Assembly (NCBI GenBank): GCA_009797885.1
Contig: WNKP01000001.1
Coordinates: 186,001 to 250,000, forward strand
Reading direction: 5' to 3'
Length of the DNA: 64,000 nt
DNA from: Flavobacteriaceae bacterium GF1
Lineage (GTDB): Bacteria > Bacteroidota > Bacteroidia > Flavobacteriales > Flavobacteriaceae
Position 1 is the stretch's first letter. Every line of letters begins with the position of its first letter. Position numbers and translations under genes: made by a program. The notes under the pieces are model-generated. The model had not been told where the DNA came from. It worked only from the letters and a program-made list of their open reading frames with translations, and searched no databases. Below are positions 6,735-31,700 of the stretch, in pieces.

Positions 6735-6743
6735 AAGACAACA

Positions 6744-8225: not shown

Positions 8226-8245
8226 ATATTTCTTTTTGTGAATTT

Positions 8246-8274
8246 AAAAGGGCTGCAAAACAGCCCTTTTTTTT
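8246..8274 (+). terminator. Intrinsic terminator between binding proteins and amylase
   Basis: GGGCTG (8250-8255) pairs with CAGCCC (8261-8266) around a five-base loop, with an A-run before and eight T after. It lies 20 bases after the SusF-like stop and only 15 bases before the amylase ATG. Confidence 0.85.
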
Positions 8275-8288
8275 CCTATAAACCCAAC

Positions 8289-11639: not shown

Positions 11640-12334
11640 AAGGCGCTAAATACCTATTCCTGATATTGATTTTCCCAGTATTATTGGCCTGTGGCGGAAG
11701 TGATGATGGACCCAGCGATCCAGAGCCTACTCCTGCCCCCTCCGCAACCACACTGGTTTTTCCTGAAAACAATTCAGAATGCACTGAGGGTACCCTGCTG
11801 TCCGATTCCGAAAGTGAGGTCATCTTTCGATGGAACATTGCTCAAAACACGGATTCATACACCGTAAACCTAAATGACTTAAGTACAGATGCCGGACGAC
11901 AGATCAATGCCAATACAAACGAATTGGCCATACGATTAAATCGGGGCACCCCATATTCGTGGTCTGTGGTTTCCAAAGCCAATGGAACTTCTGAAACTGC
12001 CGAAAGTGCTACCTGGAAATTTTACAACGCGGGGCCCGGCATTGAAAATTACTCCCCTTTCCCAGCGGACGATCCATCCCCCAAATCCGGGGCAACGGTC
12101 AACTCCGGCAGCCTTACCTTAGGGTGGGCCGGTAGTGACTTGGACAACGATATCGTTTCTTATGAAGTATATCTTGATGTAGCCAATCCACCTGAAACGC
12201 TGGTCGGTACGGTGACCCAAACTTCATTTGAAACTACGGTAACGGCTGATACCGTTTACTATTGGAGCGTGATTACCATTGATAGCGAAAACAACCGTTC
12301 AAACTCTCAAATATTTCAGTTTAGGACAAATTAA
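11636..12334 (+). CDS. Small surface lipoprotein with fibronectin-like repeats, unknown function
   Basis: The 232-residue lipoprotein has lipobox LLAC (Cys19) followed by GGSDDG. A low-complexity linker (DPEPTPAPS) leads to two fibronectin-III-like modules of about 90 residues (FRWNIAQNTDSYTVNL; LGWAGSDLDNDIVSYEVYLD, then YYWSVITIDSENNRSNS). Its start overlaps the amylase stop by four bases (ATGA), so the two are translationally coupled. The family is not one I can name; a surface-binding or display role beside the amylase is inferred. Confidence 0.75.
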   Translation: MKGAKYLFLILIFPVLLACGGSDDGPSDPEPTPAPSATTLVFPENNSECTEGTLLSDSESEVIFRWNIAQNTDSYTVNLNDLSTDAGRQINANTNELAIRLNRGTPYSWSVVSKANGTSETAESATWKFYNAGPGIENYSPFPADDPSPKSGATVNSGSLTLGWAGSDLDNDIVSYEVYLDVANPPETLVGTVTQTSFETTVTADTVYYWSVITIDSENNRSNSQIFQFRTN

Positions 12335-13809: not shown

Positions 13810-16800
13810 ATGAAGATTACGCTACTTAAAAGCCTGCTGCTTTTGGGCGCCTTTGTGTGCTTTGGTGCAGTCCAGGCCCAGACGGTAACGGGTACGGTTT
13901 CAGACGCGAGTGGCCCCCTGCCTGGGGCCAGTGTTGTCGTGAAAGGTACCACAAATGGTACCCAAACCGATTTTGATGGTAACTATACCCTGGATGGTGT
14001 GGACAGCAACGCCACTTTGGTATTCAGTTACATTGGCTATGCCACACAAGAAGTGGCAGTTAACGGCCAAACAACAATCTCCGTAACCTTACAGGAAGAT
14101 GCGCAAGCGTTGGATGAGGTAGTCATCATTGGTTATGGTCAAACTACTGTTAAGGATGCGACCGGTGCCGTGGCATCAGTAACTGCCGAAGATTTTAACG
14201 GAGGTGTGATTTCATCACCCGAACAGTTGATCCAAGGTAAAACCGCAGGGGTCCAGATTACACAAAGTAGTGGTGAACCCGGTGCAGGAATTGCCCTTAG
14301 AATCAGGGGTACGGGTTCGGTACGGGCCAATAACAGTCCGTTATTTGTGATTGACGGTGTACCGGTGACCAACGAAGAGGTATCTGCAAGTGGTTCCGAT
14401 GTTGGAGCGGGTACAAGTGGGTCCAGAAACCCATTGAATTTCTTAAACCCTAATGATATTGAGAGCATGAGTATCCTAAAGGATGCCTCTGCAACTGCGA
14501 TATATGGTTCCAGGGGAGCCAATGGGGTGGTCATTATCACCACAAAATCAGGTAAGGGAGCTGGTGCGAATGGTCAGTGGAGTTATACCAGCAACCTTAA
14601 TATTGCCGAGGTCCGAGAGACCTATGACCTTTTGAATACCGAAGAGTTCATTGATAGAGGTGGAGCAAACTTAGGAGGCGCCACGGACTGGCAAGATTTT
14701 ATCTATAGAACAACAGCTTCTACAGACAACAATCTTTCCTACGCCTTGAATTATGGTAAGGGTAATGTACGGGCCACTTTTGGATATGCCAAACAATTCG
14801 GTATCATAGAAGACACCGATTTGGAACGGATTACGGGTCGGATCAATGCGAATCACCGTTTCTTGGATGACAAGCTACGAGTGGGGTTACAGGCCACGAT
14901 TTCCAGAATTAACGATCAGGCGCCATTTGTCAGTAGGACTTCAGGAAGTACCGGAGACCTATTGGCCGCTGCTTTATACTCCAACCCAACTTTGGCTGCA
15001 AATCCAGATTTGAGCGCTGCACCCGATAGAAATCCGGCGAACCTTTTGGCCTACTACCAAGATCTTACCAACACCGATAGGTTTTTGGGGAATCTTTCTT
15101 TGGAGTACAGTTTTACGGATGAGTTATCCGCAAAGCTCAATTTGGGGTACGATGTTTCGGATTCGGAGCGTAGTCAAGTCGTGGGACCGGAAATAATAGC
15201 GCTCAATAATGGTTCGGAAAACAACGGCCGTGGTGCTTTGAACAATCTGGAAACGGAAAACCGATTGGTGGAATTGACGGTGAATTATACCAAGGAATTT
15301 GAGAATTCCAGTTTGGATGCTTTAGTAGGATATTCCTTTCAGGACTTCAACAGACAGGGCCAAAACATTCTAGGTCAAGGCTTTGGATCTTCCGATTTGA
15401 ATCAAATTGCTGCATTAAATAAAAGCGCTTTCGAGGCTACAAGAAATTTGGCAAGCGGATATCAGGCCTACGGTATAGGAACTTTTGAAGATGAACCAGA
15501 GCTTGGCGATCAATTCAGAATATTGAATTTATTCCCAGCTCCAAACATTACCACACAAGATTTACCCAGTATTCCCGTAGACGCGTTAACAGTGGATACA
15601 TTTGACTTTACCGATGAATTGCAGTCCTTTTTTGGCAGGGTCAATTACACGCTCTATGACAAATATCTGTTTACTGCTACCATCAGGGCAGACGGATCCT
15701 CAAGATTCGGGGGCAACAATCAGTATGGGTATTTCCCCTCAGCGGCATTTGCCTGGAAACTTAATGAAGAGGACTTTGTTAATGAAGATACTTTCTCAAC
15801 CCTCAAATTACGCTTGAGTTGGGGTATTACGGGTAATCAGGACGGTATTGGTTTTGGAAATTTTGCCAATAGGACAAGATGGGGAAGATTTAATGCCCCA
15901 ACCCTTGATATTTCGGCCAATTCACAAATTACAGCTCCTGCCACCCGTTCGGTTGCCTTTGAAAATCCTGATTTGAAATGGGAAGAGACCACGCAATATG
16001 CCTTGGGTATCGATTTTGGGTTCGCAAATGATCGTCTAAGCGGTTCCATTGACCTTTATAGAAGGGAAACCCGTGATATCCTATTAAACCTTCCTGCCGT
16101 ACAGCCTGCAAACGAACCCTTTTCATTTCAAAATGTTGATGGCACCATTATCAACCAGGGGATCGAATTTGGATTGGACTATGACATCGTTAATGGGGAA
16201 GATTTCTACTGGAATGCCAATTTCAATATTGCGTATAACGATAATGAGCTGACCGATTATGATGGTCCTAATATAGAAGCAGGACAAGTATATGGCCAAG
16301 GTTTATCCAATGCTTTTGTGCAGGTCCTGACCAACGGAAGGTCGCTCTTCACCTATAATTTACGGAACGTGGATGCCGACCTGAATGTGGATACCGATCC
16401 CAGCATACAGGACGAATCGGGCTTGCCTACCGTAAACGCCGGTTTCTCTACCAGTGCGTCTTACAAGAACTGGGACGCTTCCCTTTTCTTCTCGGGACAG
16501 TTTGGTTTCTATGTCTACAACAATACCGCCAATGCCCTTTTTGCCACTACTCAAATCGGTAGTAGGAACAATCTGCAAAGTGTTGTGGATGGTGGGGTCG
16601 TTCCTTCCAGCCAAAATCCAAGTACTTTCTTTTTGGAAAAGGGTGACTTTGTGAGGTTACAAACCGCTTCAATCGGTTATAATGTACCTTTAAGTGGTGA
16701 AGGAGCCCTTAAGAGCATGAGATTAAGCCTTACAGGTCAAAACTTACTGTTGATCACGGATTACAGCGGCCCTGATCCAGAGGTAAGCACCTCTGATATT

Positions 16801-16896
16801 CCTGCGGTTACGGGAGGCATTCCTTCCGCATCCATAGATTATTTAGCGTATCCCAGACCAAGAACAGTTAGTTTGGGTGTAAATGTTACCTTTTAA
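13810..16896 (+). CDS. SusC-like TonB-dependent outer-membrane transporter (second unit)
   Basis: 1028 residues with a signal peptide (MKITLLKSLLLLGAFVCFGAVQAQ). It has a carboxypeptidase-regulatory-like domain (DASGPLPGASVVVKGT, DFDGNYTLDG), LDEVVIIGYGQ, a plug (SPLFVIDGVPV, ASATAIYGSRGANGVVIITTK) and a barrel ending LGVNVTF. It is a clear paralogue of the SusC at 918-4037, and both sit beside related LacI regulators. SusD follows after 12 bases. No glycoside hydrolase accompanies the pair here. The substrate may therefore be a small oligosaccharide released by the first locus, or something unrelated handled by the FG-GAP/haloperoxidase genes that follow. Confidence 0.96.
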   Translation: MKITLLKSLLLLGAFVCFGAVQAQTVTGTVSDASGPLPGASVVVKGTTNGTQTDFDGNYTLDGVDSNATLVFSYIGYATQEVAVNGQTTISVTLQEDAQALDEVVIIGYGQTTVKDATGAVASVTAEDFNGGVISSPEQLIQGKTAGVQITQSSGEPGAGIALRIRGTGSVRANNSPLFVIDGVPVTNEEVSASGSDVGAGTSGSRNPLNFLNPNDIESMSILKDASATAIYGSRGANGVVIITTKSGKGAGANGQWSYTSNLNIAEVRETYDLLNTEEFIDRGGANLGGATDWQDFIYRTTASTDNNLSYALNYGKGNVRATFGYAKQFGIIEDTDLERITGRINANHRFLDDKLRVGLQATISRINDQAPFVSRTSGSTGDLLAAALYSNPTLAANPDLSAAPDRNPANLLAYYQDLTNTDRFLGNLSLEYSFTDELSAKLNLGYDVSDSERSQVVGPEIIALNNGSENNGRGALNNLETENRLVELTVNYTKEFENSSLDALVGYSFQDFNRQGQNILGQGFGSSDLNQIAALNKSAFEATRNLASGYQAYGIGTFEDEPELGDQFRILNLFPAPNITTQDLPSIPVDALTVDTFDFTDELQSFFGRVNYTLYDKYLFTATIRADGSSRFGGNNQYGYFPSAAFAWKLNEEDFVNEDTFSTLKLRLSWGITGNQDGIGFGNFANRTRWGRFNAPTLDISANSQITAPATRSVAFENPDLKWEETTQYALGIDFGFANDRLSGSIDLYRRETRDILLNLPAVQPANEPFSFQNVDGTIINQGIEFGLDYDIVNGEDFYWNANFNIAYNDNELTDYDGPNIEAGQVYGQGLSNAFVQVLTNGRSLFTYNLRNVDADLNVDTDPSIQDESGLPTVNAGFSTSASYKNWDASLFFSGQFGFYVYNNTANALFATTQIGSRNNLQSVVDGGVVPSSQNPSTFFLEKGDFVRLQTASIGYNVPLSGEGALKSMRLSLTGQNLLLITDYSGPDPEVSTSDIPAVTGGIPSASIDYLAYPRPRTVSLGVNVTF

Positions 16897-16908
16897 AAAA
16901 ATTGTATT

Positions 16909-18501
16909 ATGAAGAAAATAACAAATTATTTAGGCATGGCACTCTTGGTCTCTGGGGTGTTTTCATGTACGGATTTAGAGATCGAGGCTTCAGATTCGTT
17001 AATAACGGACGGATTTGCTGGAGTAGCGGATATACAAAGTGAAGTAGTAAACCTTACCAATAGTGTTGCTGGTGGGGCACTCGCCAATCAAGAGAGTTTA
17101 TTCGCCTTGAACGAAGTAACCACGGACGAATATATAGTACCCACACGGGGAACGGACTGGGGGGACAATGGTAGGTGGCTATCCATTCACAGACATACTT
17201 GGGCTCCAGAGCTTTTTGACATTATTCAGCCATGGCAGCAACTCAATGCGGTTAGCTTTAATGCCAGTAGGGTTATTAGTCCTAAAAGTGTCAACACTTC
17301 AGCTGGCGATATTACCGAGCTCAAAGCTCAGGCCAGGTTTTATAGGGCATGGGCCATGCATTGGATTTTGGATATGTGGCGGCAAATTCCTTACAGGGAT
17401 TTGGGCTTGCCCAATAGTGCCATACCTGAGGTTTTAACAGGCCAAGTGGCCCTTGATAGTATTGTAAGTGATTTAAATATTGCTATTGCCGACCTACCCA
17501 CGGTAACATCGGGCGATGCCATTAGTGCAAAGTCCACACCAACCAAAGCGGCAGCCCGTCTTTTAATGGCCAGGGTCCATTTGAACAAGCATGTATATCT
17601 TGGAACCGCGCCAGCCGCTGCGGATATGCAAGTGGTCATCGATAACGTTGATGCGATTGCGGGGGATGGTTATACGTTGGCAGCATCCGGTGATTTCTTT
17701 GATATTTTTAGACCAGGTAATGATGTGGAAACCATTTGGTGGTCACCAGCAGATGCCGGACCACGAACCTGGCTTACCCTACATTACAATCAAAACTTCC
17801 CTGGGTTCAATGATGGTGGTGGCTGGAATGGATTTACAACACTTGCCGAGTTTTATGATTTATTCGAAGGCGCGGCCGAAACCAACTATCCTGGTGATGG
17901 ACAAGAAGAGCGAAGAGGTGTGGTACATGACCCAACCAGTGCAAACGAGGATAACTTAGGTATTGGCTTAGGCTTCTTGATCAATCAACAATATGAGCAA
18001 GATGGAACACCTTTGGATGCCAGAGAGAATGTTGGTGGCGTGCCACTGGTGTTTACAAGGGAAACGGAGCAGGCCGAGTATGTAGCACCCCAGGATAATG
18101 CACTATTGGAAACCTCAGGAATACGGATGCTAAAATACCACCCCAATGAAGAAGGTGGTGATCGCAGAAGACATATTGTGAGGTACCGATATGCCGATGC
18201 ATTTTTAATGAAAGCGGAAGCCATGTGGAGAATGGGTGGCGACCCAACGGTGATGATCAATGATCTAAGGACCACTCGAGGTGCCTCAGTATTGGGTGCT
18301 GTTGGAGAAGCCGACTTATTGGCCGAAAGAGGTAGGGAATTGTACCAAGAAATGGTGAGAAGACAAGACCTCATTCGGTTTGGTCAATTTTCGAGAGCAT
18401 GGAACCTTAAAGAAGCCAGTGACGAAACCCGTTTTATATTTCCAATTCCAATTGCGGATGTTTTGGCCAATCCAAATTTGGTCCAAAATCCCGGATATTA
18501 A
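16909..18501 (+). CDS. SusD/RagB-like surface lipoprotein (second unit)
   Basis: A 530-residue lipoprotein with lipobox VFSC (Cys20) followed by TDLEIEAS. Family marks are QARFYRAWAMHWILDMW, the late ERGRELYQEMVRRQDLIRFGQF stretch and the C-terminus NPNLVQNPGY. It pairs with the SusC gene 12 bases upstream. Tryptophan-rich segments (TIWWSPADAGPRTWLT) could contribute to ligand binding. A strong terminator follows about 25 bases after the stop, so SusC-SusD form a two-gene transcript distinct from the genes at 19070 onward. Confidence 0.95.
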   Translation: MKKITNYLGMALLVSGVFSCTDLEIEASDSLITDGFAGVADIQSEVVNLTNSVAGGALANQESLFALNEVTTDEYIVPTRGTDWGDNGRWLSIHRHTWAPELFDIIQPWQQLNAVSFNASRVISPKSVNTSAGDITELKAQARFYRAWAMHWILDMWRQIPYRDLGLPNSAIPEVLTGQVALDSIVSDLNIAIADLPTVTSGDAISAKSTPTKAAARLLMARVHLNKHVYLGTAPAAADMQVVIDNVDAIAGDGYTLAASGDFFDIFRPGNDVETIWWSPADAGPRTWLTLHYNQNFPGFNDGGGWNGFTTLAEFYDLFEGAAETNYPGDGQEERRGVVHDPTSANEDNLGIGLGFLINQQYEQDGTPLDARENVGGVPLVFTRETEQAEYVAPQDNALLETSGIRMLKYHPNEEGGDRRRHIVRYRYADAFLMKAEAMWRMGGDPTVMINDLRTTRGASVLGAVGEADLLAERGRELYQEMVRRQDLIRFGQFSRAWNLKEASDETRFIFPIPIADVLANPNLVQNPGY

Positions 18502-18526
18502 ATGGAAACTTTTTCTTAACAAGAAT

Positions 18527-18554
18527 AAAAACCCGCTCAATGAGCGGGTTTTTT
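18527..18554 (+). terminator. Intrinsic terminator after SusCD of the second unit
   Basis: CCCGCTC (18532-18538) pairs with GAGCGGG (18542-18548) around a three-base loop, flanked by an A-run and a T-run. Confidence 0.9.
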
Positions 18555-19069
18555 CTTTTTGCCATTATTCATGTCCCCCTATTTGTAATCTGAAGGGCGA
18601 AGCTTGTCTTATCAATTGACCAACAGATCTTAACAATACCTACCCCGCTTTCGGTACTTTGAACTATTTCACCGTATCTACCTGCCTCAAAATATCCCTT
18701 ATTGGAATTTTTTTGGTAAGCTACATTAGTTTTTCATTATCAATTCCACTAGGGAAGTTTACTTATATTGCCGGTCGATACTTAGTATTCAAAAATGATG
18801 GTTTAAGAAATACATAGCCTATACAGCCTTTTCCCTGATTGGAAGAGTTGTAATGATCAAGGACAAATGTCAAATTGGAAAAGCAAAAAAATTGCTAACA
18901 TCTAAAGTCTTACTAAATCAACAAAAGTGTGCTATACAATATCTTTGAGGTTTTATATTTAGCATTACAATTATCCAAATTTACCAATACAGGTGAAATT
19001 TGAGGAAAGTATAAGACTTCCCTTTTTTGAATTCCAATACTATAATTACAATCAATTTTAAGTATAAAA
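18555..19069. other. Intergenic region before the FG-GAP operon
   Basis: About 515 bases, AT-rich in the second half, with no credible coding sequence and no tRNA fold that I could find. The only signal I can support is a -7-like element at 18940-18947. Confidence 0.6.
18940..18947 (+). promoter_or_regulatory. Candidate Bacteroidota -7 element (TATCTTTG)
   Basis: An exact TAnnTTTG match, 122 bases before the ATG at 19070, with no clear TTG upstream. If used, it would drive the five-gene operon beginning at 19070 and leave a leader of roughly 110 bases. One such octamer by chance in this much AT-rich DNA is quite possible. Confidence 0.35.
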
Positions 19070-22000
19070 ATGAAGTTTTCCTTTGTAACATTGCTCATTA
19101 TTGTTTTCACAATTTATTCATGCCAGGATAAAGAAAGTCCCAACGTTAACACAGCACAACAGAATACCCTGTTTACATTACTGCCAGCTGAGGAAACCGG
19201 AGTGGATTTTGTCAATGAAGTTGAAAACCAAAAGGATTTCAACATTTTCAAGTACCGAAATTTCTACAACGGTGGCGGGGTAGCCATTGGGGACATCAAT
19301 AATGATGGTCTTCCAGACATCTACTTAACGGGAAACATGGTATCCAATAAACTGTATTTGAACAAAGGCAATTTTAAATTTGAGGATATCTCCAAAAAAG
19401 CCGGGGTTGAGGGCAACAAACCATGGTCAACAGGGGTGACGATGGTGGATATAAACGCCGATGGCCTATTGGATATCTATGTCAGCAATGCCGGAAACTT
19501 AAAAGGTAACAATCATGACAATGACCTTTATATAAACAACGGAGACCTCACTTTTACGGAAAAAGCCCATGACTTTAATCTAGCCAAAACAGGATTTTCT
19601 ACCCATGCCACTTTTTTTGACTATGATAAGGATGGGGACCTGGATGCCTATATCTTAAATAACAGCAACATTCCCGTTAGTAGCCTGGGTTATGCGGAAC
19701 AACGTGAAGTTCGCGCCCAGGACTGGGAAGGCGTACCCCACATATTCAAGGGTGTGGGCGATATGCTGCTTCGCAATGACAATGGCAAATTTGTGGATGT
19801 CAGTGAAGATGCAGGCATTTATGGAAGTCTTATCGGTTTTGGACTGGGTGTGATGGTTACTGACATCAACAACGACCTTTGGCCGGACATCTACGTTTCC
19901 AATGACTTTTACGAACGCGACTATCTTTACATCAACCAGAAAGATGGCACTTTTACCGAAGAGATCAAAGAATACACCCAGCACCTGAGCCTATCGGCCA
20001 TGGGTATTGATATCGCCGATATCAATAATGACGGCCACAATGATATTTTTATTACCGACATGCTGCCGGAACCCGAGCAACGCGTAAAATCGGTAATGGA
20101 ATTTGAGGGATATAATATCTATGACCTAAAACGGAGCAAAGACTTTTACCAACAGTACATTCAAAACACATTACAACTCAACAATGGCAATGGTACATTT
20201 TCCGAAGTTGCCTATTATAGCGGTATTGATGCAACGGACTGGAGTTGGGCAGGTCTTATCTTTGATATGGACAATGATGGGCTAAAAGATATTTTTATTA
20301 CCAATGGCATCAACCATGACTTAACGGATCTGGATTTTGTTGATTTTTTTGCCAATGAGATCATTCAAAAAATGGCATTGACCGGTAAAAAGGAGTCCAT
20401 TGATTCCATCATCAACAAAATGCCCATTAAACCACAGCCCAATTATGCTTTCCGAAATAATGGTGATATTACCTTTGACAATGCCAACAAAAGCTGGGGA
20501 TTTGACCTCCCTACACGGTCCAATGGGGCTGCATACGGAGATTTGGACAATGATGGCGATTTGGACCTGGTCATCAATAATGTAAATACCAATTCCTTTA
20601 TTTATAGGAACAATAGCAATGAGCAACTTACACACAATTACCTGCAGCTCAAACTTAATGGGGATGAAAAAAACCCCTTTGCCATTGGTTCGTTGGTTAA
20701 GTTCTATTTTGAAAACAATACTGTGCATCAGGAGTTGATCCCTTCCCGCGGTTTTCAATCTTCAGTGGATTACGTAATGACACTGGGCCTGGGCAATGCA
20801 AAAAAATTGGATTCCATTCGTGTTATCTGGCCCAATAGTACAACCACCCTATTGAAGGAGGTGAGCGTAAACCAACGAATGGAATTGAACCAAAAGGATG
20901 CCCATAACGTCTATTCACCTAAAAAAGGTTCTCCCAAAAAACTCCTGATCCAGGAATTGGACAATGGTACATGGACCTCCCATAGGGAAAACAATTATAA
21001 TGATTTTGACTATGAAGGGCTTATCTATAAAAAGTTGTCCCAAGAAGGTCCTGCCATGGCTATTGCCGATGTAAATGGGGATGGGAATGAAGACGTTTTC
21101 ATTGGTGGCGCAAAAGGAAGTCCGGGAACATTGTATTTACACAGGGGCAACGGAAAGTTCCAATCAAAACCTTCCCAGGTCTTTGAAAAAGATCGCTCTT
21201 TTGAGGACACCGCTGCTGCGTTTTTGGATGCCGATGGTGATGGGGATTTGGACCTAATGGTAGGGAGCGGAGGCAATGAAGTAGGCCAGGAAAATTCCTA
21301 TAGGGCCCGTCTTTATCTAAATGATGGAAAGGGAAATTATAAGGCTTCTGGGCAAAATCTTCCCACCACGTATAAAAACATTGCCACTATAAACCCCCAT
21401 GACTATGATGGGGATGGGGACACCGATGTCTTTATAGGTTCCAGAAGTGTCGTTGGCGTTTATGGGGTAAATCCCAATCACCTTCTTCTGGAAAATAGGG
21501 AAGGAACTTTTGTTGATGCTACGGAACGAAGGGGGTATGACCTTAAGGATGAAGGAATGGTCACCGATGCTATTTGGGCAGATATGGATGGGGACGGAAA
21601 AAGTGATTTGATTACGGTCTCTGAATGGGATGTCCCCAAAATCCACAAAAACTCAGGGAGAAGGATACAACGTATTGAAACCTCCCTTGATAGTCTCCAC
21701 GGTTGGTGGAACACGGTAGAGGCGGCTGATTTGGACGGTGATGGGGACTTGGACCTTATTTTGGGCAATCAGGGCGAAAACCTGCATTATAGACCGGTAG
21801 ATGGTCAGCCCATGAAGCTTTGGATCAATGATTTTGACGCTAATGGTACTATAGAACAATTGGTCACCATTAGTGAAAACGGGGGTGACTATCCAATCCA
21901 TCAAAAGAAAGAAATCACGGCCCAGGTGGTATCCTTAAAAAAGGAGAACCTAAAAGCTTCGGACTATGCACAGCGAACTATTCAAGAGCTCTTTCCGCCA

Positions 22001-22408
22001 GAAATCATCGATCAATCCATTGTAAAACAAAGTATGATTTCCGCTTCCGTACTTGCGATTAACCAAGGGAACGGACAGTTCCAAATTAAAAAATTACCTC
22101 CAAGGGTACAGTTTTCCTGTGTTTGCGACATCAATTGTACTGATATCAATAACGATGGCAATCTTGACTTAATAATGGCGGGAAACAATTTTGAGTACAA
22201 ACCGCAATTCTCCCGGTTGGACGCAAACTACGGTAATGTCCTCTTAGGAGATGGGAATTTAAATTTTGAATGGCAAAACTATGGTACTACTGGTTTTTTT
22301 GTTCGGGATGAGGTAAAGCATCTAAAAATGGCAAGGGACAAGGACAATAATCGATTTTTAATAGCCGCCATCAATGATGGAAAACCAAAAATCTACGCCT
22401 TGCCATGA
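19070..22408 (+). CDS. FG-GAP/VCBS repeat lipoprotein with ASPIC-UnbV domain (CRTAC1-like)
   Basis: A 1112-residue lipoprotein with lipobox IYSC (Cys18) followed by QDKES. It holds many calcium-binding beta-propeller repeats of the form DINNDGLPDIYL and DYDKDGDLDAYIL. In the middle is an ASPIC/UnbV module (GSLVKFYFENN, LIPSRGFQSSVDYVMTLGLG, DSIRVIWPNS). A second repeat set follows (DVNGDGNEDVFIGG; DLDGDGDLDLILGNQGEN). These proteins are displayed on the outer membrane; their ligand is unknown. The stop overlaps the start of a paralogue by four bases. The gene heads a run of five exported-protein genes ending at 28758, downstream of the second SusCD pair. Confidence 0.93.
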   Translation: MKFSFVTLLIIVFTIYSCQDKESPNVNTAQQNTLFTLLPAEETGVDFVNEVENQKDFNIFKYRNFYNGGGVAIGDINNDGLPDIYLTGNMVSNKLYLNKGNFKFEDISKKAGVEGNKPWSTGVTMVDINADGLLDIYVSNAGNLKGNNHDNDLYINNGDLTFTEKAHDFNLAKTGFSTHATFFDYDKDGDLDAYILNNSNIPVSSLGYAEQREVRAQDWEGVPHIFKGVGDMLLRNDNGKFVDVSEDAGIYGSLIGFGLGVMVTDINNDLWPDIYVSNDFYERDYLYINQKDGTFTEEIKEYTQHLSLSAMGIDIADINNDGHNDIFITDMLPEPEQRVKSVMEFEGYNIYDLKRSKDFYQQYIQNTLQLNNGNGTFSEVAYYSGIDATDWSWAGLIFDMDNDGLKDIFITNGINHDLTDLDFVDFFANEIIQKMALTGKKESIDSIINKMPIKPQPNYAFRNNGDITFDNANKSWGFDLPTRSNGAAYGDLDNDGDLDLVINNVNTNSFIYRNNSNEQLTHNYLQLKLNGDEKNPFAIGSLVKFYFENNTVHQELIPSRGFQSSVDYVMTLGLGNAKKLDSIRVIWPNSTTTLLKEVSVNQRMELNQKDAHNVYSPKKGSPKKLLIQELDNGTWTSHRENNYNDFDYEGLIYKKLSQEGPAMAIADVNGDGNEDVFIGGAKGSPGTLYLHRGNGKFQSKPSQVFEKDRSFEDTAAAFLDADGDGDLDLMVGSGGNEVGQENSYRARLYLNDGKGNYKASGQNLPTTYKNIATINPHDYDGDGDTDVFIGSRSVVGVYGVNPNHLLLENREGTFVDATERRGYDLKDEGMVTDAIWADMDGDGKSDLITVSEWDVPKIHKNSGRRIQRIETSLDSLHGWWNTVEAADLDGDGDLDLILGNQGENLHYRPVDGQPMKLWINDFDANGTIEQLVTISENGGDYPIHQKKEITAQVVSLKKENLKASDYAQRTIQELFPPEIIDQSIVKQSMISASVLAINQGNGQFQIKKLPPRVQFSCVCDINCTDINNDGNLDLIMAGNNFEYKPQFSRLDANYGNVLLGDGNLNFEWQNYGTTGFFVRDEVKHLKMARDKDNNRFLIAAINDGKPKIYALP

Positions 22409-25400
22409 GAAATAGTTTGGTTTATGCGGTAATTTTGGTTCTAGTGGGATGCAAAAAAAGTGGGGATTTGTTCCATAATCCTTCCCCTCGGGAAACCGGA
22501 ATTGATTTTGCCAATAGCCTTACTGAAAATGATGGGCTCAATATTTTGGATTACCTATATTTCTATAACGGTGGTGGGGTCGCAATTGGGGATATCAATA
22601 ATGATGGACTTCCCGATATTTACCTGTCCGGGAACCAAGTAAAGAACAAGCTTTATCTGAATAAAGGGGACCTTAGTTTTGAGGACATCACCGAACAAGC
22701 AGGTGTTGGGGGACAGAGTTCCTGGAACACCGGAAGTGTCATGGCCGATGTTAATGGGGACGGGCTCCTGGACATTTATGTTTGTGCCGTAGTGGGCACC
22801 AACGGTTTTATAGGATACAATGAACTTTTTATAAACAACGGAGATCTTACTTTTTCCGAACAAGCCGGATCATACGGACTGGATTTTGAATCTTACAGTT
22901 CCTCCGCCGCTTTTCTGGACTATGATCTGGATGGGGATTTGGACATTTACCTCTTAAATCATGCCGTACACACCTCGGAATCTTATGGCAAGGTAGATTT
23001 ACGGTACCGGCGTAACTATGAGACTGGCGACAGATTGCTCAAAAATGACAATGGTAAATTCGTTGACGTTAGTAAAGAAGCTGGAATTTATGGAGGAGTA
23101 AACGGTTATGGCCTGGGAATTGCCGTATCCGATTTTAATATGGATGGATATCCCGATATTTATGTGGGAAACGATTTTCATGAGGATGATTACTACTACT
23201 TGAACAATGGTGACGGAACCTTTACGGAAAGCCTACGTCGTTATTTTGGTCATACCACTCGTTTTTCCATGGGTAATGATGTGGCGGACATCAACCATGA
23301 TGGCCTACCCGATTTGATTTCCTTGGATATGCTCCCAGAGGATGAAGTGGTTTTAAAATCCTCTGAAGGGGACGATAACCTTCAAGTGCAGAAATTACGT
23401 ATTGATGATTTTGGATACCATTATCAGTTCACTCGAAATATGCTTTATGTAAACCAACCGGACGGCAACTATATGGAAACTGCCCTAATGAGCGGCGTGG
23501 CTGCAACAGATTGGAGTTGGAGCGCCCTTTTTGGGGATTATGACCAGGATGGACATCAAGACTTATTTGTGGCCAATGGCATTCCCAAACGACCCAATAA
23601 TTTGGATTTTATCAAGTTTGTTTCCAATGAACAGATCCAACAAAAAATCAACAATACCAATCTGATGGACCAAGAGGCTTTGGAGCTCATGCCATCAGGA
23701 ACTACAAGGAATTTTATTTTCAAAGGGGACGGCAAACTGTCGTTTGATGACAAATCGGCGCATTGGATCTCCAATGATACCTTGGTTTCCGGAGCAACCG
23801 CTTATGGCGATCTGGACAATGACGGAGATTTGGATTTGGTGGTCAACAACCTTAATAGTCCTGCACTCATCTACGAAAATAAAACAAACGACAAAGCGAA
23901 TTATTTGAAAGTACGTTTGGACTATAAATCCAAGAACCGATACGGAATCGGCTCAAAAATATACGCCTATTACAACGGCACACTACAATTCAAGGAGTTG
24001 TTTCTTTCCAGGGGTTTTCAAGCCTCATCAGAGCCTTTGGTCCATTTCGGATTGGGGGAAATCACTATTTTGGATTCCCTTAAAATAATTTGGCCGGACA
24101 AAAGCTATCAAACCATACCAAAAGTTAAGGCCAACCAAACCTTAATGGTATCACCACAGGACACTAAACCCTTTGGCACCAGCGGACCAATCGCCAAATC
24201 AAACCCCATATTCATTAAGGATACATCCTGTTTGGGGATCAATTTTATGCACAAGGAGGACAATTATCTGGATTTCAACCGCGAGAAATTGATTCCTTAT
24301 CGAATTTCAGATAGAGGGCCTGCTTTTGCAAAGGGTGATCTGAATTCCGATGGAAAGACAGACTTGTTTTTTGGTGGTTCAAAATTCTTTCCCAGCACTT
24401 TTTACAAACAGTTGGATAGCTCCTTTGTGAAAATGGAACTTCCATGGATACAAAAGGACTCGATCACGGAAAATATAACTGCCGCTATTGCCGATTTCAA
24501 TGCTGATGGTGCAAACGATATCATTATTGGAAATGGAGGTGGGGACTTCTACAATGAGGCACAACCGTTACAAGATCGATACTACCTGTCCAAAGAAAAT
24601 GGTTTTCAAGCCAAGGATTTCCCCAAAATATTTCAAAATACATCCGTTATTGCACCTTTCGACTATGATCAAGATGGGGATTTGGATGTTTTTGTTGGCG
24701 GACATACCATTACGGCAAAATTTGGGGAGGGGGTAAACTCCTATGTGCTCACCAATACCAACGGAACGTTTGAAATCAATAAAGGGTTTCAATTCTCTGG
24801 AATGGTCACTGATGCGATTTGGGATGACTTTGACCAGGATGGGAATACCGACTTGATCATTGTTGGGGAATGGATGTCCCCAAGGTTTTTTCAAAATAAG
24901 AATGGAACTTTTGTTGAAACCAATGTCCTTAGCAATTCAGGGCTTTGGCAAAGTATCCATCCCTTCGATATTGACGGCGATGGGGATATGGACTATCTTT
25001 TGGGCAACTGGGGGCTTAACAGTAAATTCAAGGCTTCCAAAAAATATCCGCTTCGACTGTATTTTTCGGACTTTGATGGTAACGGACAAACCGAAACCAT
25101 CACTGCTTTTGAAAAAGATGGAAAGTATTATACCCTGGAAGGTCTGGATGGGCTGGCTTCACAAATGGTCAGTCTCCGCAAAAAATTTAATTCCTATCAA
25201 TCTTTTGCTGGAAAATCCATTGAGGAGTTGTTTGATCCCAAACAGCTTAAATCTGCCAAAATTCATGAAGTGACCACTCTGGCTTCCGGATACTTAAAGA
25301 ACAATGAGGGGGCTTTTGAGTTTGTTTCCTTTCCAAATACCATGCAAGTTGCCCCACTTTTGGATTTTGTTTCTGCAGATTTTGATGGTGACGGTCAAGA

Positions 25401-25638
25401 AGAGGTTCTTGCCGGAGGAAACTATTTTGGGGTCAAACCCTACCACGGAAGGTTTGATTCTTTCCCTGGGGCACTGATACAAAATGAAAATGAAATAGTT
25501 TTGGGAAATCTTCTGGGATTGGATTTCACCCAAAAATCCATAAGGCATATGGAAACCATAACGGTAAATGGGCAGGACTATTTATTGGCGGTATTCAATA
25601 ACGGCGAGGCAGAGGTCTACAAAATAAATTCAAAATAA
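22405..25638 (+). CDS. FG-GAP/VCBS repeat lipoprotein with ASPIC-UnbV domain, second paralogue
   Basis: A 1077-residue lipoprotein with lipobox LVGC (Cys16) followed by KKSGD. Same plan as the preceding gene: FG-GAP repeats (DINNDGLPDIYLSG; DVNGDGLLDIYVC), an ASPIC/UnbV module (GSKIYAYYNGT, LFLSRGFQASSEPLVHFGLG, DSLKIIWPDKS) and a second repeat set (DYDQDGDLDVFVGG; DIDGDGDMDYLLGNWG). Both have the matching opening RETGIDFAN / EETGVDFVN and YFYNGGGVAIGD / NFYNGGGVAIGD. They are a tandem duplication and may act as a heteromeric pair. Translation is coupled through ATGA at 22405. Two bases separate it from the haloperoxidase-type gene. Confidence 0.93.
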   Translation: MRNSLVYAVILVLVGCKKSGDLFHNPSPRETGIDFANSLTENDGLNILDYLYFYNGGGVAIGDINNDGLPDIYLSGNQVKNKLYLNKGDLSFEDITEQAGVGGQSSWNTGSVMADVNGDGLLDIYVCAVVGTNGFIGYNELFINNGDLTFSEQAGSYGLDFESYSSSAAFLDYDLDGDLDIYLLNHAVHTSESYGKVDLRYRRNYETGDRLLKNDNGKFVDVSKEAGIYGGVNGYGLGIAVSDFNMDGYPDIYVGNDFHEDDYYYLNNGDGTFTESLRRYFGHTTRFSMGNDVADINHDGLPDLISLDMLPEDEVVLKSSEGDDNLQVQKLRIDDFGYHYQFTRNMLYVNQPDGNYMETALMSGVAATDWSWSALFGDYDQDGHQDLFVANGIPKRPNNLDFIKFVSNEQIQQKINNTNLMDQEALELMPSGTTRNFIFKGDGKLSFDDKSAHWISNDTLVSGATAYGDLDNDGDLDLVVNNLNSPALIYENKTNDKANYLKVRLDYKSKNRYGIGSKIYAYYNGTLQFKELFLSRGFQASSEPLVHFGLGEITILDSLKIIWPDKSYQTIPKVKANQTLMVSPQDTKPFGTSGPIAKSNPIFIKDTSCLGINFMHKEDNYLDFNREKLIPYRISDRGPAFAKGDLNSDGKTDLFFGGSKFFPSTFYKQLDSSFVKMELPWIQKDSITENITAAIADFNADGANDIIIGNGGGDFYNEAQPLQDRYYLSKENGFQAKDFPKIFQNTSVIAPFDYDQDGDLDVFVGGHTITAKFGEGVNSYVLTNTNGTFEINKGFQFSGMVTDAIWDDFDQDGNTDLIIVGEWMSPRFFQNKNGTFVETNVLSNSGLWQSIHPFDIDGDGDMDYLLGNWGLNSKFKASKKYPLRLYFSDFDGNGQTETITAFEKDGKYYTLEGLDGLASQMVSLRKKFNSYQSFAGKSIEELFDPKQLKSAKIHEVTTLASGYLKNNEGAFEFVSFPNTMQVAPLLDFVSADFDGDGQEEVLAGGNYFGVKPYHGRFDSFPGALIQNENEIVLGNLLGLDFTQKSIRHMETITVNGQDYLLAVFNNGEAEVYKINSK

Positions 25639-25640
25639 AA

Positions 25641-26993
25641 ATGGAACAAATGAAAAGGATAGCAAGTTTACTTTTTTCGGTTTTTATGCTTTTCTCTTGT
25701 ACTAAGGAGCAAAAACCAATACCAATAACCCAAGAAGATTTTCACGCATCCGTGGATAAGGTGACCGAAGTAATGGTCCATGATATTTTTTCCCCTCCCG
25801 TAGCCAGTCGCATCTATGTTTATCCAAATATTGGTGCCTACGAAATTCTGGCCAATAACCATCCTGGGTACAGTCCTCTGGCCGGTCAATTGGAAGGACT
25901 GCAGCCCATTCCAAAACCTGATTCGAAAAATGTCAACTTTGAATTGGCCGCACTTATTGCCCATATGGATCTGAGTCGTATGCTCATTTTCTCCGAGGAT
26001 ATGATTATTTCCCATAGGGACAGTCTATATGGCGTTTGGGAAGAAAGGAACAGGGAAGAATTTGTAGCCTCCAAAACTTACGGACTTCAAGTTTCGGATC
26101 ACATCGCCAAATGGATGGACAATGACAATTACAAACAGACCCGGACCATGCCCAAGTTTTCCGTAGATACGGAGGACGCTTCACGTTGGCAGCCGACCCC
26201 ACCGTCCTACATGGATGGCATTGAGCCACATTGGAACAAAATACGTCCCTTTGTCATTGATTCTGCAAACCAATTTAAACCTACCCCTCCCCCTCCTTTT
26301 TCCATGGAGGAAGACTCGGATTTTTATAAAGAGGTAAAGGAAGTTTATGACATCAGTAATGAGATTACCGCAAAGGGCGATACATCGGAAGAAGTGGCCA
26401 TTGCCCAATTTTGGGATTGCAATCCCTATGTTTCCGTAACACGGGGGCATTTAATGTTTGCCACCAAGAAGATTACCCCCGGCGCCCATTGGATAGGTAT
26501 TGCCAAAATTGCGGCCAGAAAAACCGAGGCAGATGTGGCAAAGACCGTTTATACCTATACCAAAACTTCCATAGCCATAGCCGATGCCTTTATCAGTTGT
26601 TGGGATGAAAAGTACAGGAGCAGCCTAATTCGTCCAGAAACATTGATCAATACGCATATAGATGAAAATTGGGAGCCCGTTCTGCAGACCCCTCCCTTTC
26701 CCGAGTATACCAGCGGTCACAGTGTAGTTTCCGGGGCTGCAGCAGTCGCCCTCACCAGCATTTATGGGGATAGTTTTGCTTTTGATGATGATACCGAAGT
26801 ACAATATGGTCTTCCTGTTCGCTCCTTCGCTTCCTTTAGGAAAGCAGCAGATGAGGCGGCCATCAGTAGGATGTATGGTGGTATCCATTACCGTGCCGCA
26901 GTGGAAATAGGCGTAAAGCAGGGAAGGGATTTGGGTACTTTTGTAGTTGAAAAACTTAACATGGATACCTCTGACCAAACCGTGACAAAATAA
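25641..26993 (+). CDS. Vanadium-dependent haloperoxidase / PAP2-type lipoprotein
   Basis: A 450-residue protein with lipobox LFSC (Cys20). The C-terminal half carries the full vanadate/phosphate pocket: K324 and R331 in K-x6-RP (KYRSSLIRP), S358-G359-H360 in EYTSGHS, and R410 with H416 in SRMYGGIHY. Members either oxidise halides with peroxide or act as acid phosphatases; sequence alone does not separate the two. As an outer-envelope lipoprotein it would act on extracellular or periplasmic material. It sits between two FG-GAP lipoproteins and two further exported proteins, with gaps of 2 and 6 bases. ATG 25650 is an alternative start that keeps the lipobox. Confidence 0.9.
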   Translation: MEQMKRIASLLFSVFMLFSCTKEQKPIPITQEDFHASVDKVTEVMVHDIFSPPVASRIYVYPNIGAYEILANNHPGYSPLAGQLEGLQPIPKPDSKNVNFELAALIAHMDLSRMLIFSEDMIISHRDSLYGVWEERNREEFVASKTYGLQVSDHIAKWMDNDNYKQTRTMPKFSVDTEDASRWQPTPPSYMDGIEPHWNKIRPFVIDSANQFKPTPPPPFSMEEDSDFYKEVKEVYDISNEITAKGDTSEEVAIAQFWDCNPYVSVTRGHLMFATKKITPGAHWIGIAKIAARKTEADVAKTVYTYTKTSIAIADAFISCWDEKYRSSLIRPETLINTHIDENWEPVLQTPPFPEYTSGHSVVSGAAAVALTSIYGDSFAFDDDTEVQYGLPVRSFASFRKAADEAAISRMYGGIHYRAAVEIGVKQGRDLGTFVVEKLNMDTSDQTVTK

Positions 26994-26999
26994 ATCCTC

Positions 27000-27899
27000 A
27001 TGAGAAAAGTGACTTCCATACTCTTGTTTTTGTTGGTAGCGGCATTATGTTGGTACTTGTTTTTAAAACCTTCGGATTATACCATTCGCTTTGAAGCCAA
27101 AACGTTTCCCGGTGCCATCAATCAATATCTAAAAGTCTGGGACCAAACACTGGATACCCTTCATAAAATAAAACAAGGAGAAGACCTCTATCATCTAACA
27201 CAAAAAGTAAGGTTTGGGGATTCCATCCATCAATATCAATGGCGAATTGAACCTATAACGGATTCCACTTCCAAGGTTTTTGTGAACATTAAGGATAAGG
27301 ACCATAGCCTAATGAACAAAATCCAAGTACCTTTTAAAGAAACCGATTTTGTGAAACGAAGCAAGAAAACCGTTTTGGACTTTATGGAAAATCTGGATGA
27401 ACACACCAAGGAATTCAAGATAACGATTGTTGGGGAGGAAGATGTTCCCAGTAAATACGTTGCCTACGTTCCCTTAAAGGTGGAGCAGTCCAAAAAAGCC
27501 AATGGCATGATGAAGAATTTTTCCTATCTCACCGGAGAACTGTACATCAATGGTGTGGAACTGGATGGCCCACCAATGATTGAAGTGACAAAATGGGATA
27601 TGAAGAATGACAGTTTGCACTATAACTTTGGACAACCCATTATCCGTTCAGAACGCCTGCCCATTGGCACTGATATTAAGTACAAACGGATCTTTAAAAA
27701 GCGGGCATTAAAAGCAGAATACAATGGCAACTATATCACTTCGGACCGCGCCTGGTATGCACTGATGGACTATGCAAGGAAAAACAATATCGAAGTGGAT
27801 GAAAAACCTGTTGAAGTATTCTTCAATAAACCCATGGGCGGCAATAGCATACATTGGAAAGCCGAGGTTTATATGCCCATAAAGGAGGGCAATGAATAG
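27000..27899 (+). CDS. Membrane-anchored protein with SRPBCC-like and GyrI-like halves
   Basis: 299 residues: one N-terminal transmembrane helix at about 6-22 (ILLFLLVAALCWYLFL), then a polyketide-cyclase/SRPBCC-like part (IRFEAKTFPGAINQYLKVW). The C-terminal half resembles GyrI-like/AraC effector-binding domains (KYVAYVPLKVE, LTGELYINGVELDGPPMIEV, WYALMDYARKNNIEVD). Such domains bind small hydrophobic molecules but no DNA-binding part is present. It lies 6 bases after the haloperoxidase-type gene and overlaps the next by 8 bases. A ligand-binding or chaperone-like role is only inferred. The domain calls are by eye. Confidence 0.7.
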   Translation: MRKVTSILLFLLVAALCWYLFLKPSDYTIRFEAKTFPGAINQYLKVWDQTLDTLHKIKQGEDLYHLTQKVRFGDSIHQYQWRIEPITDSTSKVFVNIKDKDHSLMNKIQVPFKETDFVKRSKKTVLDFMENLDEHTKEFKITIVGEEDVPSKYVAYVPLKVEQSKKANGMMKNFSYLTGELYINGVELDGPPMIEVTKWDMKNDSLHYNFGQPIIRSERLPIGTDIKYKRIFKKRALKAEYNGNYITSDRAWYALMDYARKNNIEVDEKPVEVFFNKPMGGNSIHWKAEVYMPIKEGNE

Positions 27900-28758
27900 A
27901 TTCAGTCTTTTTTTTCTAATGGTCATGGCCATGCAGGGATGTGCCCAATCCCCTTGGTATGGGGATTTGGAATTTCTGGGACGTTTTCCTTCCAACTTAA
28001 GCGAAGTCTCCGGTATTGATAGGGACAACAGTGGTAATCTCTGGGTGATCGAGGACAACGGCAATAAGGACAAGTTATACCAAATTGATAAAGATGCACG
28101 CCTTGTTAAGGGATTGCGTATTGATAATGCAAAGAACGAAGATTGGGAGGACTTGAGCATTGCAAACGATGGAACGGTCTATATTGGCGACTTTGGAAAC
28201 AACGCCAATACAAGGAAAGATTTGGTCATCTATAAAATTGCAAAAGCAGAGTTACGTAAGAAAGCCCCAAAGGCCGAGAAAATCAAGTTTTCCTATCCAC
28301 AACAAAAGAAGTTTCCACCCAAGAAGAAAAACTTATTGTTTGATTCCGAAGGCTTTTTCCATTGGAACGGATATCTGTATGTTTTTACCAAAAACAAATC
28401 AAGGCCGTATTCTGGAAAAACATTGGCCTATAGAATTCCGGATAAAAAAGGGGAATATGAAGCTGAGTTCATAGGGGAATTTATTCTTTGCAAAGATCAG
28501 GACCATTGTTCCATTACCGCTGCGGATATTTCCGAGGATGGCAAAACCATTGCTTTTATAGGATATGGTTTTATTTATATGCTGACGGAATTTGACCTAA
28601 GTGATTTTTCCAAATTCAAAATGAAAACCATTGATCTCAACTATGAAACACAAATAGAGTCCGTATGTTTTTGGGACGATACTACGCTCCTGATTGCTGA
28701 TGAGCAGTCCAAAACCAGGGGAAGAAACCTATATCGATATCAAATCGAAAAGGATTAA
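27892..28758 (+). CDS. Propeller-like lipoprotein of unknown function
   Basis: 288 residues with lipobox MQGC (Cys17). It has repeated beta-sheet phrases such as SEVSGIDRDNSGNLWVIEDN, GTVYIGDFGNN and SITAADISEDGKTIAFIGYG, typical of six-bladed propeller or SdiA-regulated-like proteins. Conserved polar residues in DNGNKDKLYQID and DFGNNANTRKD could bind metal or substrate. It overlaps the preceding gene by 8 bases and closes the five-gene run. Its stop overlaps that of the convergent phosphoesterase gene by four bases. I do not recognise a specific function. Confidence 0.7.
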   Translation: MNRFSLFFLMVMAMQGCAQSPWYGDLEFLGRFPSNLSEVSGIDRDNSGNLWVIEDNGNKDKLYQIDKDARLVKGLRIDNAKNEDWEDLSIANDGTVYIGDFGNNANTRKDLVIYKIAKAELRKKAPKAEKIKFSYPQQKKFPPKKKNLLFDSEGFFHWNGYLYVFTKNKSRPYSGKTLAYRIPDKKGEYEAEFIGEFILCKDQDHCSITAADISEDGKTIAFIGYGFIYMLTEFDLSDFSKFKMKTIDLNYETQIESVCFWDDTTLLIADEQSKTRGRNLYRYQIEKD

Positions 28759-31700
28759 AATCCAAAACCAAGGCCAAAAGCAAAACGCAGACCATCCGAA
28801 CTATTGAACAGGCCGGCATTAAAGGATAGAATGTCCGCTCCATTGACAAAAAAACCACCCCCGTAGGAATTGTGCCAAGTATCGGAGTTTTCATTGGGAA
28901 TCCACACCCTTCCGTAGTCAAATCCTCCATAAATCCCAGGGGTGACCGGTAAAAGCCCGGTTCTACGCTCGCGAAAGCTCCACCGTACATCCGTATTCTG
29001 AAAGTATGCCGTTTTTCCGGTAAACCTCTGGAATCGGAATCCCCGTAACCCGTTGTTGGCCCCAATACTTGCCGCTTGGTAAAACTCAAAATCATCACCA
29101 ATATTAAAATGGCCCTTAAATTTTGTGGCCAGGACCAATTGTCCACTGGGAACCAGTCTGTAGTCAAATGACAATGAAGGTATAATATACCCAAAGGTCC
29201 TATCGGAATCGTTCAAATTAGCGGTATACCCTCCTTCCAATGAAAACGCCATCCCCATGGTCGGAAAGGCCTCATTGTCAAAATTGGAATAACTGTAGGA
29301 CGCATTTACCCCAAAAAACTCTTGCTGTGTATCCCTCCCCAAATTGGTAAAAAATCCTTCAATGAACCGACCTTCGGTTTCTTCCACATCAAAGTTTTCA
29401 TAGGAAACGCCCAATTTGACTTTGGATCCCAGAAATCCCCTCCACACCAAAGAAGGTGAAAAATGAAGTTGCCGTATTTTCACTCGATTGAAGTCAAAAT
29501 CCACATCATCATCAAAGTTTGGGGTGTCATTTCCAAAACCAAAGAAGTTAATGGCAAAATTGGGGCTTGTAAATTTTGCCTCCAGTTCCAGGTTCACCTT
29601 TTCAAAAACGTTGGCAAACTCACCACTATACCCAAAATCAAACCCATTTGTGGCAAAATAATACGCTGCATTTAGGGTGTGTTGTTGGGTAAAGGGATTT
29701 TGACGAAACCCATTGAACGTATAGGTGTTGGTGACACCCACTCGCAATCCATCGTCAGGATTAAAGCCAATGGATGGCAGGAACTGATTGTTACTGGACT
29801 TGATTTTTATAAACTGATACGTATTGGTGTCATAATCATTTATCTTGTGGATCCTGCCGGCAAATGCTTCTTCATAGCTGTTCTTTTTTGCTTTAAAATC
29901 ATAGACATGGACATTTTTGGCCTTTTCATTGATTTTGTAAACATCATTATTCTGCCCCCCTATCAATCGTACCTTTATTTGACCCGCGCTCCCATTCACT
30001 TCAAAAATATCGTCATCATCCAATCCATAAATCCAAATCTCCTTGTTTTGATCGGGATCAAATACTTTATCAAAGAAAAGATCGGTTTTTTTCCCACCCT
30101 TGATTCGATAGGCTTTCACATCCACCCTTCCATTATCCAATGGATTGATGACAAAGTGGTCATCCTTATCCGTTCCTGTAATGACACTGTATTTATTGAG
30201 TACTCGGTAATATTCCTCAGCGGTCTTGACCAGATTTTCCTTCCTTTTTAATAGTATGGTCTTCATGCCCTCCACGGTTTCATCCCGGACCTCTTCCGGA
30301 AACTGCTGAAAAGCCTTGTCCACCGTTTTGGCATCCATATGTTGTTGGATGTATTTCGCCTGTTCCATCCAGTCTTCCAAGGTTGTTTCGGACAACAGGG
30401 CCATATCCAAGGCAAAGGTCATTGGAGATGAATTGAACCCCTTTACACTGCGTATCTCCTCTTGAAACCCTTCAAATAATCTCAGGGACGGGACGGCCCT
30501 ACTCGCAAATGCCATTAAGGCACCATCGCCCATTATGGAAAATGCCTGATCACGATCTCTGGGAATGGGTTTAAAGATTTTGGTGCCATCTTCCTTTTTA
30601 AAACGTGCCCAACGCCATTGGTCCACATGCCGATCCCAATCCCCAATGAGCATATCAAAGAGCCGCGCCCTTACATAAGCATTGGCGTCCACTTGGTATT
30701 CTTCATCCTTACGCAATTTCTCTATGAAATCGTCCGTACTTTCAATTTTTTCGGTCTTTCCAAAACTATCCAGATCATGCCCATCCGAAACGTGCTCTTC
30801 AATCATATACAATTCATCACCAAAATCCACATTAAAACCTTTCAAGGCCTCTTGTTTTGGAATATAAAAGAGTTTTGGGTTGGTATGGAAAACGCCCACC
30901 GCATCGGACAAGGTACCAATCGTAAAAGGGGCATAGGGATGGGAACCCGTGTAAAAATCCAAGAGTATGGACTCTGTAAACGTATCTTCAAATTCCCCAA
31001 CAACATATTTTTCCTGAAAAGCCAGTGCCTGTAAATAGAGTTCCGCACTCTTTCGCAATGCCCGCATCACAAATTGTCTTCCATCCTTATGCTGCAACCT
31101 CAAGGACTTGGATTGATGCCCCCCTCCTTTTCGTATGGGAACCAATCCGCCGTACAAGGTGTCCAAATCCACAGTTGGGGCTTTCACTTTTGTGGCATAG
31201 TATTTTCGATACCGTTCCCCCCAGACCATCTTGTAAAATCCAGTTTTATCCACTTCTTCATCTGTATAGATCGAGGCTTCCACATAAGCGGGAAAACTAC
31301 TTTGCCCTTTGAATTCGGCAGGTCGTAGATTTGGGGGAAGTACCTGGGTTTCAAAAAGTGTAGATTTGACCTCGTCTTCAACGCCTTTAAACGTAACTGT
31401 TGATGCCCCATCGGCATACACTTTTAAAACGGCATATCCCATTTGACCTGTGGAAAATTGGCTGCCGTTCAATAAGCGTGTTGCCCCTTTTTTGGCGCCC
31501 GAACCACTTACAATCTGAGGTGTGTTCTCCTCAACGATATATTGAAGGGTATGTTCATGACCAGAAACAAAAATTACCTTTTCCGAGTATTGGGCAAGTG
31601 TAACAATACGTTTCTTCAACTCATTGTATTTCTTATTGGACAAATCGGTATTGGAAGCACCCGTAGTCCTGCGCAGCACGTTCGCCAAAGTACCTATAAT

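Follow-up and report, generated by a model that had tools for sequence, protein, structure and literature searches.

A Zobellia-type haloperoxidase gene kept with FG-GAP/ASPIC lipoprotein genes near SusCD pairs in Flavobacteriaceae

The window analysed here comprises 64,000 nucleotides of the marine Flavobacteriaceae bacterium GF1 (GCA_009797885.1, contig WNKP01000001.1, positions 186,001 to 250,000). It contains, in this order and all on the plus strand, genes for SusC and SusD, a terminator and five closely packed genes, F1-F2-V-G-P, encoding two FG-GAP/ASPIC lipoproteins (F1, F2), a vanadium-dependent haloperoxidase (VHPO; V), a GyrI-like protein (G) and a small propeller-like lipoprotein (P). 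Judged by its sequence, V is orthologous to the Zobellia iodoperoxidase of known crystal structure and no generic PAP2 protein. This enzyme type is already known; its FG-GAP/SusCD context appears to be new. The core of the unit is FG-GAP plus enzyme, with SusCD as a frequent, exchangeable partner, and the fact that the enzyme and the calcium-binding proteins are kept together in many relatives points to a surface machine of which we found no description. We consider it rather probable that F1-F2-V-G-P is a module that oxidises iodide at the cell surface, is carried by Ca-binding propeller lipoproteins and is joined to sugar-type SusCD loci.

The enzyme and the proteins encoded with it

V (25641-26993, +; PF01569) aligns over its full length (residues 4-446, E=3e-225) with the solved Zobellia galactanivorans vanadium haloperoxidase (4CIT/4USZ) and is 71.9% identical to 4CIT across 441 residues. 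Its lipoprotein signal was judged by eye. The vanadate ligands listed in the first-pass annotation of this DNA (K324, R331, S358, H360, R410, H416) are all found in V and invariant across 22 aligned members; K-R-S-H-R-H is the ligand set of such enzymes. That annotation had offered haloperoxidase or phosphatase as the enzyme; haloperoxidase stands, narrowed by the alignment to an orthologue of the Zobellia iodoperoxidase. Enzymes of the vanadium haloperoxidase family oxidise iodide to hypoiodous acid (HOI) or I2 by means of vanadate and H2O2.

4USZ is termed a vanadium iodoperoxidase (PMC5064120), and the accessible part of PMC13198595 places the Zobellia enzyme among the iodoperoxidases. According to the part of PMC9296495 at hand, one Zobellia vanadium iodoperoxidase (vIPO3) is upregulated on Ascophyllum compared with alginate. 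V is 72% identical to the Z. galactanivorans enzyme and keeps all its vanadate ligands, whereas the portions of the literature on that enzyme available to us mention no FG-GAP/ASPIC or SusCD neighbourhood.

F1 (19070-22408, +; PF13517, PF01839, PF07593) and F2 (22405-25638, +) both possess FG-GAP repeats (FG-GAP_3) and a UnbV_ASPIC domain (62.9 and 70.7 bits, respectively, cut-off 23.4), which bears out their earlier description as CRTAC1-like ASPIC/FG-GAP lipoproteins. Each contains 12 DxDxDG-type motifs; proteins of the FG-GAP family bind calcium. The F1 profile matches the CRTAC1 structure 9ETN (E=3.1e-16, positions 65-144). The repeats and the UnbV_ASPIC domain are shared with other CRTAC1/ASPIC FG-GAP proteins, but F1 and F2 are bacterial lipoproteins of about 1100 amino acids (aa), often encoded beside SusCD.

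G (27000-27899, +) combines an N-terminal helix, presumably a membrane anchor, with a C-terminal GyrI-like small-molecule-binding domain. This domain, also named in the first-pass annotation, passes the Pfam cut-off (PF06445, 27.1 bits, cut-off 26), and the structure model (predicted local distance difference test, pLDDT, 90) has CtaZ as its best Foldseek match (E 2.5e-9), followed by CTR107 and EcmrR. These fold neighbours bind hydrophobic aromatics, e.g. closthioamide and rhodamine. The propeller proposed for P (27892-28758, +) holds as a weak likeness: a Phytase-like match is present, but at 19.3 bits it lies below the cut-off of 27.6.

Recurrence of the gene set and exchange of its neighbours

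Among 149 Flavobacteriaceae genomes, one per genus, 60 possess V orthologues (E<=1e-100). Outside the window these occupy 61 places, 60 of which, from 59 genera, were analysed. In 54 of the 60 loci an FG-GAP gene precedes V on its own strand, and in 49 it does so within 300 bases. Where at least 12 kb of upstream sequence is available (55 loci), SusC is present in 39, SusD in 41 and both in 39, while 8 loci have FG-GAP upstream with neither SusC nor SusD. Of 41 loci, 28 have a SusD-to-FG-GAP interval shorter than 250 bases. The set therefore recurs beside SusCD in 39 of 55 family loci, and the lack of conservation in relatives that the first-pass annotation had named as grounds for rejecting its interpretation was not found. 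Its view of an uptake system with SusCD holds to this extent, but SusCD is not obligatory, as the terminator and the loci of G006 and L172 (below) indicate; as a whole, that interpretation is partly supported.

In the genus of GF1, all 11 genomes (own included) possess a V orthologue with 74-100% identity. The survey of named genomes covered the best 80 of 445 V relatives. The counts rest on the 74 of these 80 loci in which V reads as an open reading frame (ORF) and is followed by 2.5 kb or more of sequence, which leaves out L065 and five short loci; P follows V in 73 and G in 71 of them, and F2 is directly upstream of V in 64 of the 67 loci with enough upstream sequence. L172 (G011), with a V 98.4% identical to the 4CIT chain, has the order F0-F1-F2-V-G-P, F0 being a third FG-GAP gene; further upstream are a symporter gene on the opposite strand and genes for an error-prone polymerase and DNA polymerase III alpha. 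F0-F1-F2, G and P are also present in two named Zobellia species (L065, L099); V of L065 is not read as one ORF, yet aligns by tblastn. Arenibacter aquaticus and A. palladensis (L093, L109) carry F1-F2-V-G-P. Two V paralogues in the genus (L124, L125; 28-29% identity) again show the order SusC-SusD-F-V-F.

In a sample of 198 genomes of the class, V relatives (E<=1e-30) occur in 34, two of them from the own family. Outside the family, 40 of 50 V places were analysed, and FG-GAP is found within 6 kb of V in 24, i.e. in 18 of 23 with at least 40% V identity and in 6 of 17 below. On a quick V tree of 116 rows, in which 41 of the 113 inner branches are unresolved, the label linked/unlinked changes 15 times (12 forced by starred branches), against an average of 24 in shuffles; the link between V and FG-GAP is therefore clustered but often gained or lost.

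The genome of GF1 has 8 ASPIC genes in five places, four of them behind SusC-SusD on the same strand: C11 (the window), C60, C22 and C4. The fifth place (C33) is a fusion gene, L130:8497-12579 (-), whose ORF of 1361 aa comprises FG-GAP/ASPIC, a VHPO domain and a type IX secretion system (T9SS) tail, and which is convergent with nearby SusC/SusD-like genes on the opposite strand. In G414, the fusion halves are two neighbouring genes on one strand. The fusion is not a common form: 7 of 148 phylum-level genomes matched at E<=1e-60, and a full-length single match occurs only here.

ASPIC genes are present in all 60 genomes with V and in 54 of the 89 others (Fisher p=8e-10, kinship ignored). For the genomes lacking V, 20 ASPIC places were hand-picked among the matches listed, one per genome. 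Of 17 long FG-GAP/ASPIC genes, 10 are directly behind SusC-SusD (9) or a contig-edge SusD (1); the remaining 7, as well as all three short genes (about 580 aa), are not behind SusCD, and no VHPO was found in any of the 20 stretches. A role as SusCD accessories is suggested for these widespread lipoproteins.

SusCD itself differs between close relatives. Compared in 500-base bins, the window and G006 (L114) are 90-98% identical over the LacI gene upstream of SusC and the SusC start, 56-78% between roughly 14100 and 18600, 84% for the gap-spanning bin and 90-96% across F1 to V; for G004 (L112) the values are 87-98% throughout. Protein identities are 96% (V), 75% (SusC) and 73% (SusD) for G006, and 80%, 90% and 85%, respectively, for G008 (L116). 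SusCD (13810-18501) thus appears to have been replaced as a unit between the window species and G006, so that F1-V would not be tied to one SusCD specificity.

Two cassette types precede V: type A is SusC-SusD-F0-F1-F2 (in the window, the same minus F0), and type B has a SusC about 32% identical to that of the window plus a further protein of some 200 aa (L120:8409-9002) without a Pfam or NCBIfam match. The type changes 8 times on the V tree (loose labels L189, L197, L219 and L220 counted), and type B is found inside the Croceivirga group (L120, L121). V therefore tends to retain an FG-GAP/SusCD neighbour, the identity of which is exchanged.

Sugar genes lie at several of these loci. A symporter gene or XylB-XylA-symporter genes lie between the type B cassette and V in L120, L121, L173 and L185, and L175:5142-9648 and similar loci contain genes for xylulokinase, xylose isomerase and a sodium/solute symporter between SusD and F1 (TIGR01312, below cut-off; TIGR02630; PRK10484). 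A xylose context is not the rule: just 10 of the 60 family loci have xylA/xylB, and the xylA of the GF1 genome is located elsewhere (C10, C22). A gene of glycoside hydrolase (GH) family 65 (GH65) adjoins LacI in 5 of the 60 family loci; in L224, L225, L235 and L243, GH65 proteins whose N-termini resemble signal peptides are encoded between FG-GAP and VHPO. A link to kojibiose via GH65 was discarded: the accessible main text of PMC8626586 mentions no gene cluster, polysaccharide utilisation locus (PUL), locus, SusC or FG-GAP. L242 possesses GH5-GH30-GH35 between SusCD and FG-GAP, and L228:8510-10446 an AhpC/TSA-like and a weakly Cu-monooxygenase-like gene between SusCD and FG-GAP-VHPO; an AhpC/TSA-like gene is also present in L227. 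Since these genes differ among loci, the linked pathway varies.

Possible function and competing explanations

In the mechanism that we favour, lipid-anchored V would oxidise iodide to HOI/I2 with vanadate and H2O2 at the cell surface, an activity predicted from its identity to the Zobellia enzyme. Gene order and the natural fusion suggest that F1 and F2 would carry V and tether it to a SusCD-type site in the outer membrane, and the fold of G suggests that this anchored binder of hydrophobic ligands could take aromatic or halogenated products. The module would be joined to sugar-type SusCD loci (LacI; XylAB, GH65 and other GH genes in relatives), and iodide oxidation would take place at the site where algal sugar is consumed and where algal H2O2 and iodide reach the cell. 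The cell would probably profit by removing H2O2 and capturing iodine, and a phenolic or glycan matrix might also be modified.

Iodine uptake by Arenibacter sp. C-21 requires glucose, O2 and Ca2+, with a H2O2 source substituting for glucose, and glucose oxidase plus haloperoxidase have been proposed for it (PMC5064120). These requirements fit an iodide-oxidising module on a Ca-binding scaffold: C-21 belongs to the Flavobacteriaceae, a haloperoxidase has been proposed for it, the module is present in two further Arenibacter species (L093, L109), and Ca-binding FG-GAP proteins could explain the Ca2+ need. However, PMC5064120 assigns no genes, and the module is known from Arenibacter species other than C-21. 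The module supplies Zobellia-type iodoperoxidases with a conserved gene neighbourhood and with partners that can be named, and it opens the iodine uptake of marine Flavobacteriaceae, which depends on Ca2+ and H2O2, to tests by gene deletion.

Several points weigh against an iodide-oxidising surface module. No H2O2 source was recognised within it, we infer surface display and a V-F1/F2 complex from the genes, and the structure model of F1 is poor (pLDDT 59). Halide preference is not deducible from sequence groups, as the available part of PMC13198595 states. SusCD is separable, given the terminator, the exchange in G006 and the L172 module, for which roughly 16 kb upstream of V show no SusCD. 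Under the stricter rule, which asks for FG-GAP within 6 kb regardless of strand, 6 of the 60 family loci are unlinked (among them L182, upstream-positive by the same-strand rule), as are 16 of 40 loci outside the family (L248 is cut at a contig end), and four further V relatives in the genus (L126-L129) have no FG-GAP. The link has often been gained or lost, and hosts outside the family may not live in iodide-rich water.

The locus shares the SusC-SusD tandem, a LacI regulator and downstream lipoproteins with a Sus-like PUL, but FG-GAP/ASPIC lipoproteins and a haloperoxidase replace the glycoside hydrolase: SusC and SusD are adjacent, a glycan-active enzyme is absent from the seven proteins, and GH genes appear in some relatives. 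The haloperoxidase might be an auxiliary oxidative enzyme within a PUL, its hypohalous acid attacking a polymer (phenolic/glycan matrix) while F1 and F2 bind the substrate and SusCD imports the sugars. The XylA/XylB, GH65 and GH5-GH30-GH35 genes and the AhpC/TSA-like and weakly Cu-monooxygenase-like genes listed above speak for this, but V is retained where SusCD is exchanged or not seen, the catabolic genes vary by lineage, no oxidised product is known, and the accessible part of PMC11871015 describes the active site of the Zobellia enzyme (ZgVHPO) as hard to reach; we regard the idea as unlikely. Equally doubtful is a novel SusCD surface machine in the strict sense, with hypohalous-acid chemistry in place of hydrolysis or in support of it, Ca-binding ASPIC propellers that dock the VHPO onto the SusCD importer, and import of the product; the cargo would be an oxidised or iodinated product, or sugar freed by oxidation. 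A literature search with thin coverage of subscription journals, in which absence is not proven, returned nothing joining haloperoxidase with FG-GAP or SusCD, nothing on ASPIC/UnbV with SusD, and for CRTAC1 with Bacteroidetes only off-topic items. PMC9296495 was the sole paper to combine haloperoxidase with SusC and PULs, and what came up for haloperoxidase with TonB-dependent proteins in Flavobacteria looked off-topic as well.

The terminator and the 568-base gap, the difference confined to SusCD between the window and G006, the roughly 16 kb without SusCD at L172 and the 8 of 55 loci with FG-GAP alone would all suit two unrelated operons, a sugar SusCD and an independent iodine/peroxide stress operon, adjacent by descent only. 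Against this stand the contiguity of SusC-SusD-F0-F1-F2-V in many relatives, the short SusD-FG-GAP gaps in 28 of 41 loci, the position of ASPIC behind SusC-SusD in four of five places of the GF1 genome, and the repeated pairing of V with different cassettes, so that we give this explanation little credence. Haloperoxidases in the apo form can act as phosphatases, and V belongs to the PAP2 superfamily; V could in this case be an acid phosphatase in vivo, freeing phosphate or sugar from phosphorylated glycans. Because V is orthologous over its whole length to a vanadium haloperoxidase and keeps every ligand, we consider this highly improbable.

Layout and surroundings of the locus

The ORFs agree in coordinates and strands with the SusC/SusD pair and five packed genes annotated at first pass. 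SusC (13810-16896, +; TIGR04056, 681.9 bits) is a TonB-dependent outer-membrane transporter, and the SusD lipoprotein gene follows at 16909-18501 (+; PF07980, PF14322). Spacing within F1-F2-V-G-P is -4, +2, +6 and -8 bases (overlap 4, gap 2, gap 6, overlap 8), confirming the reported limit of 8 bases.

SusD and F1 are separated by 568 bases, which include an intrinsic terminator (18527-18553, +; 12 pairs plus T tail) ending 516 bases before F1, where about 515 had been given. It has the longest stem among 20 terminator-like hits (16.7 expected in shuffles), and the sequence around it is matched by blastn in L112, L114 and L116. An F0 remnant in the gap was considered and rejected, as the best FG-GAP match among 326 queries, those to F1's own start region set aside, had E=0.003 and was taken as chance. 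A pattern scan of the gap gave one weak candidate for a TAnnTTTG-like -7 element (18940-18947, +). Sigma-70-type promoters were found at shuffle level (36, 35.1 expected), and the whole window has no Rfam match at gathering scores.

A LacI-family regulator gene (12430-13458, -; PF00356/PF00532), divergent from SusC, probably belongs to the SusCD/F1-P locus; among the 60 family loci, 20 have a minus-strand LacI gene upstream, and such a gene accompanies both cassette types. The LacI gene of the window is located between SusC and an alpha-glucan-type locus (840-12334) with SusC, SusD, two SusE/F-like genes and a gene for an alpha-amylase-domain protein with a T9SS tail. The statement that SusCD lacks a glycoside hydrolase is correct for the seven proteins, in which Pfam and NCBIfam profiles found no glycoside hydrolase or other carbohydrate-active enzyme family, but it had left out the LacI gene and this upstream locus. 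Downstream, a gene for a 1233-aa calcineurin-like phosphoesterase protein (28755-32456) is convergent with P, with a 4-base overlap, and is a neighbour kept in many relatives.

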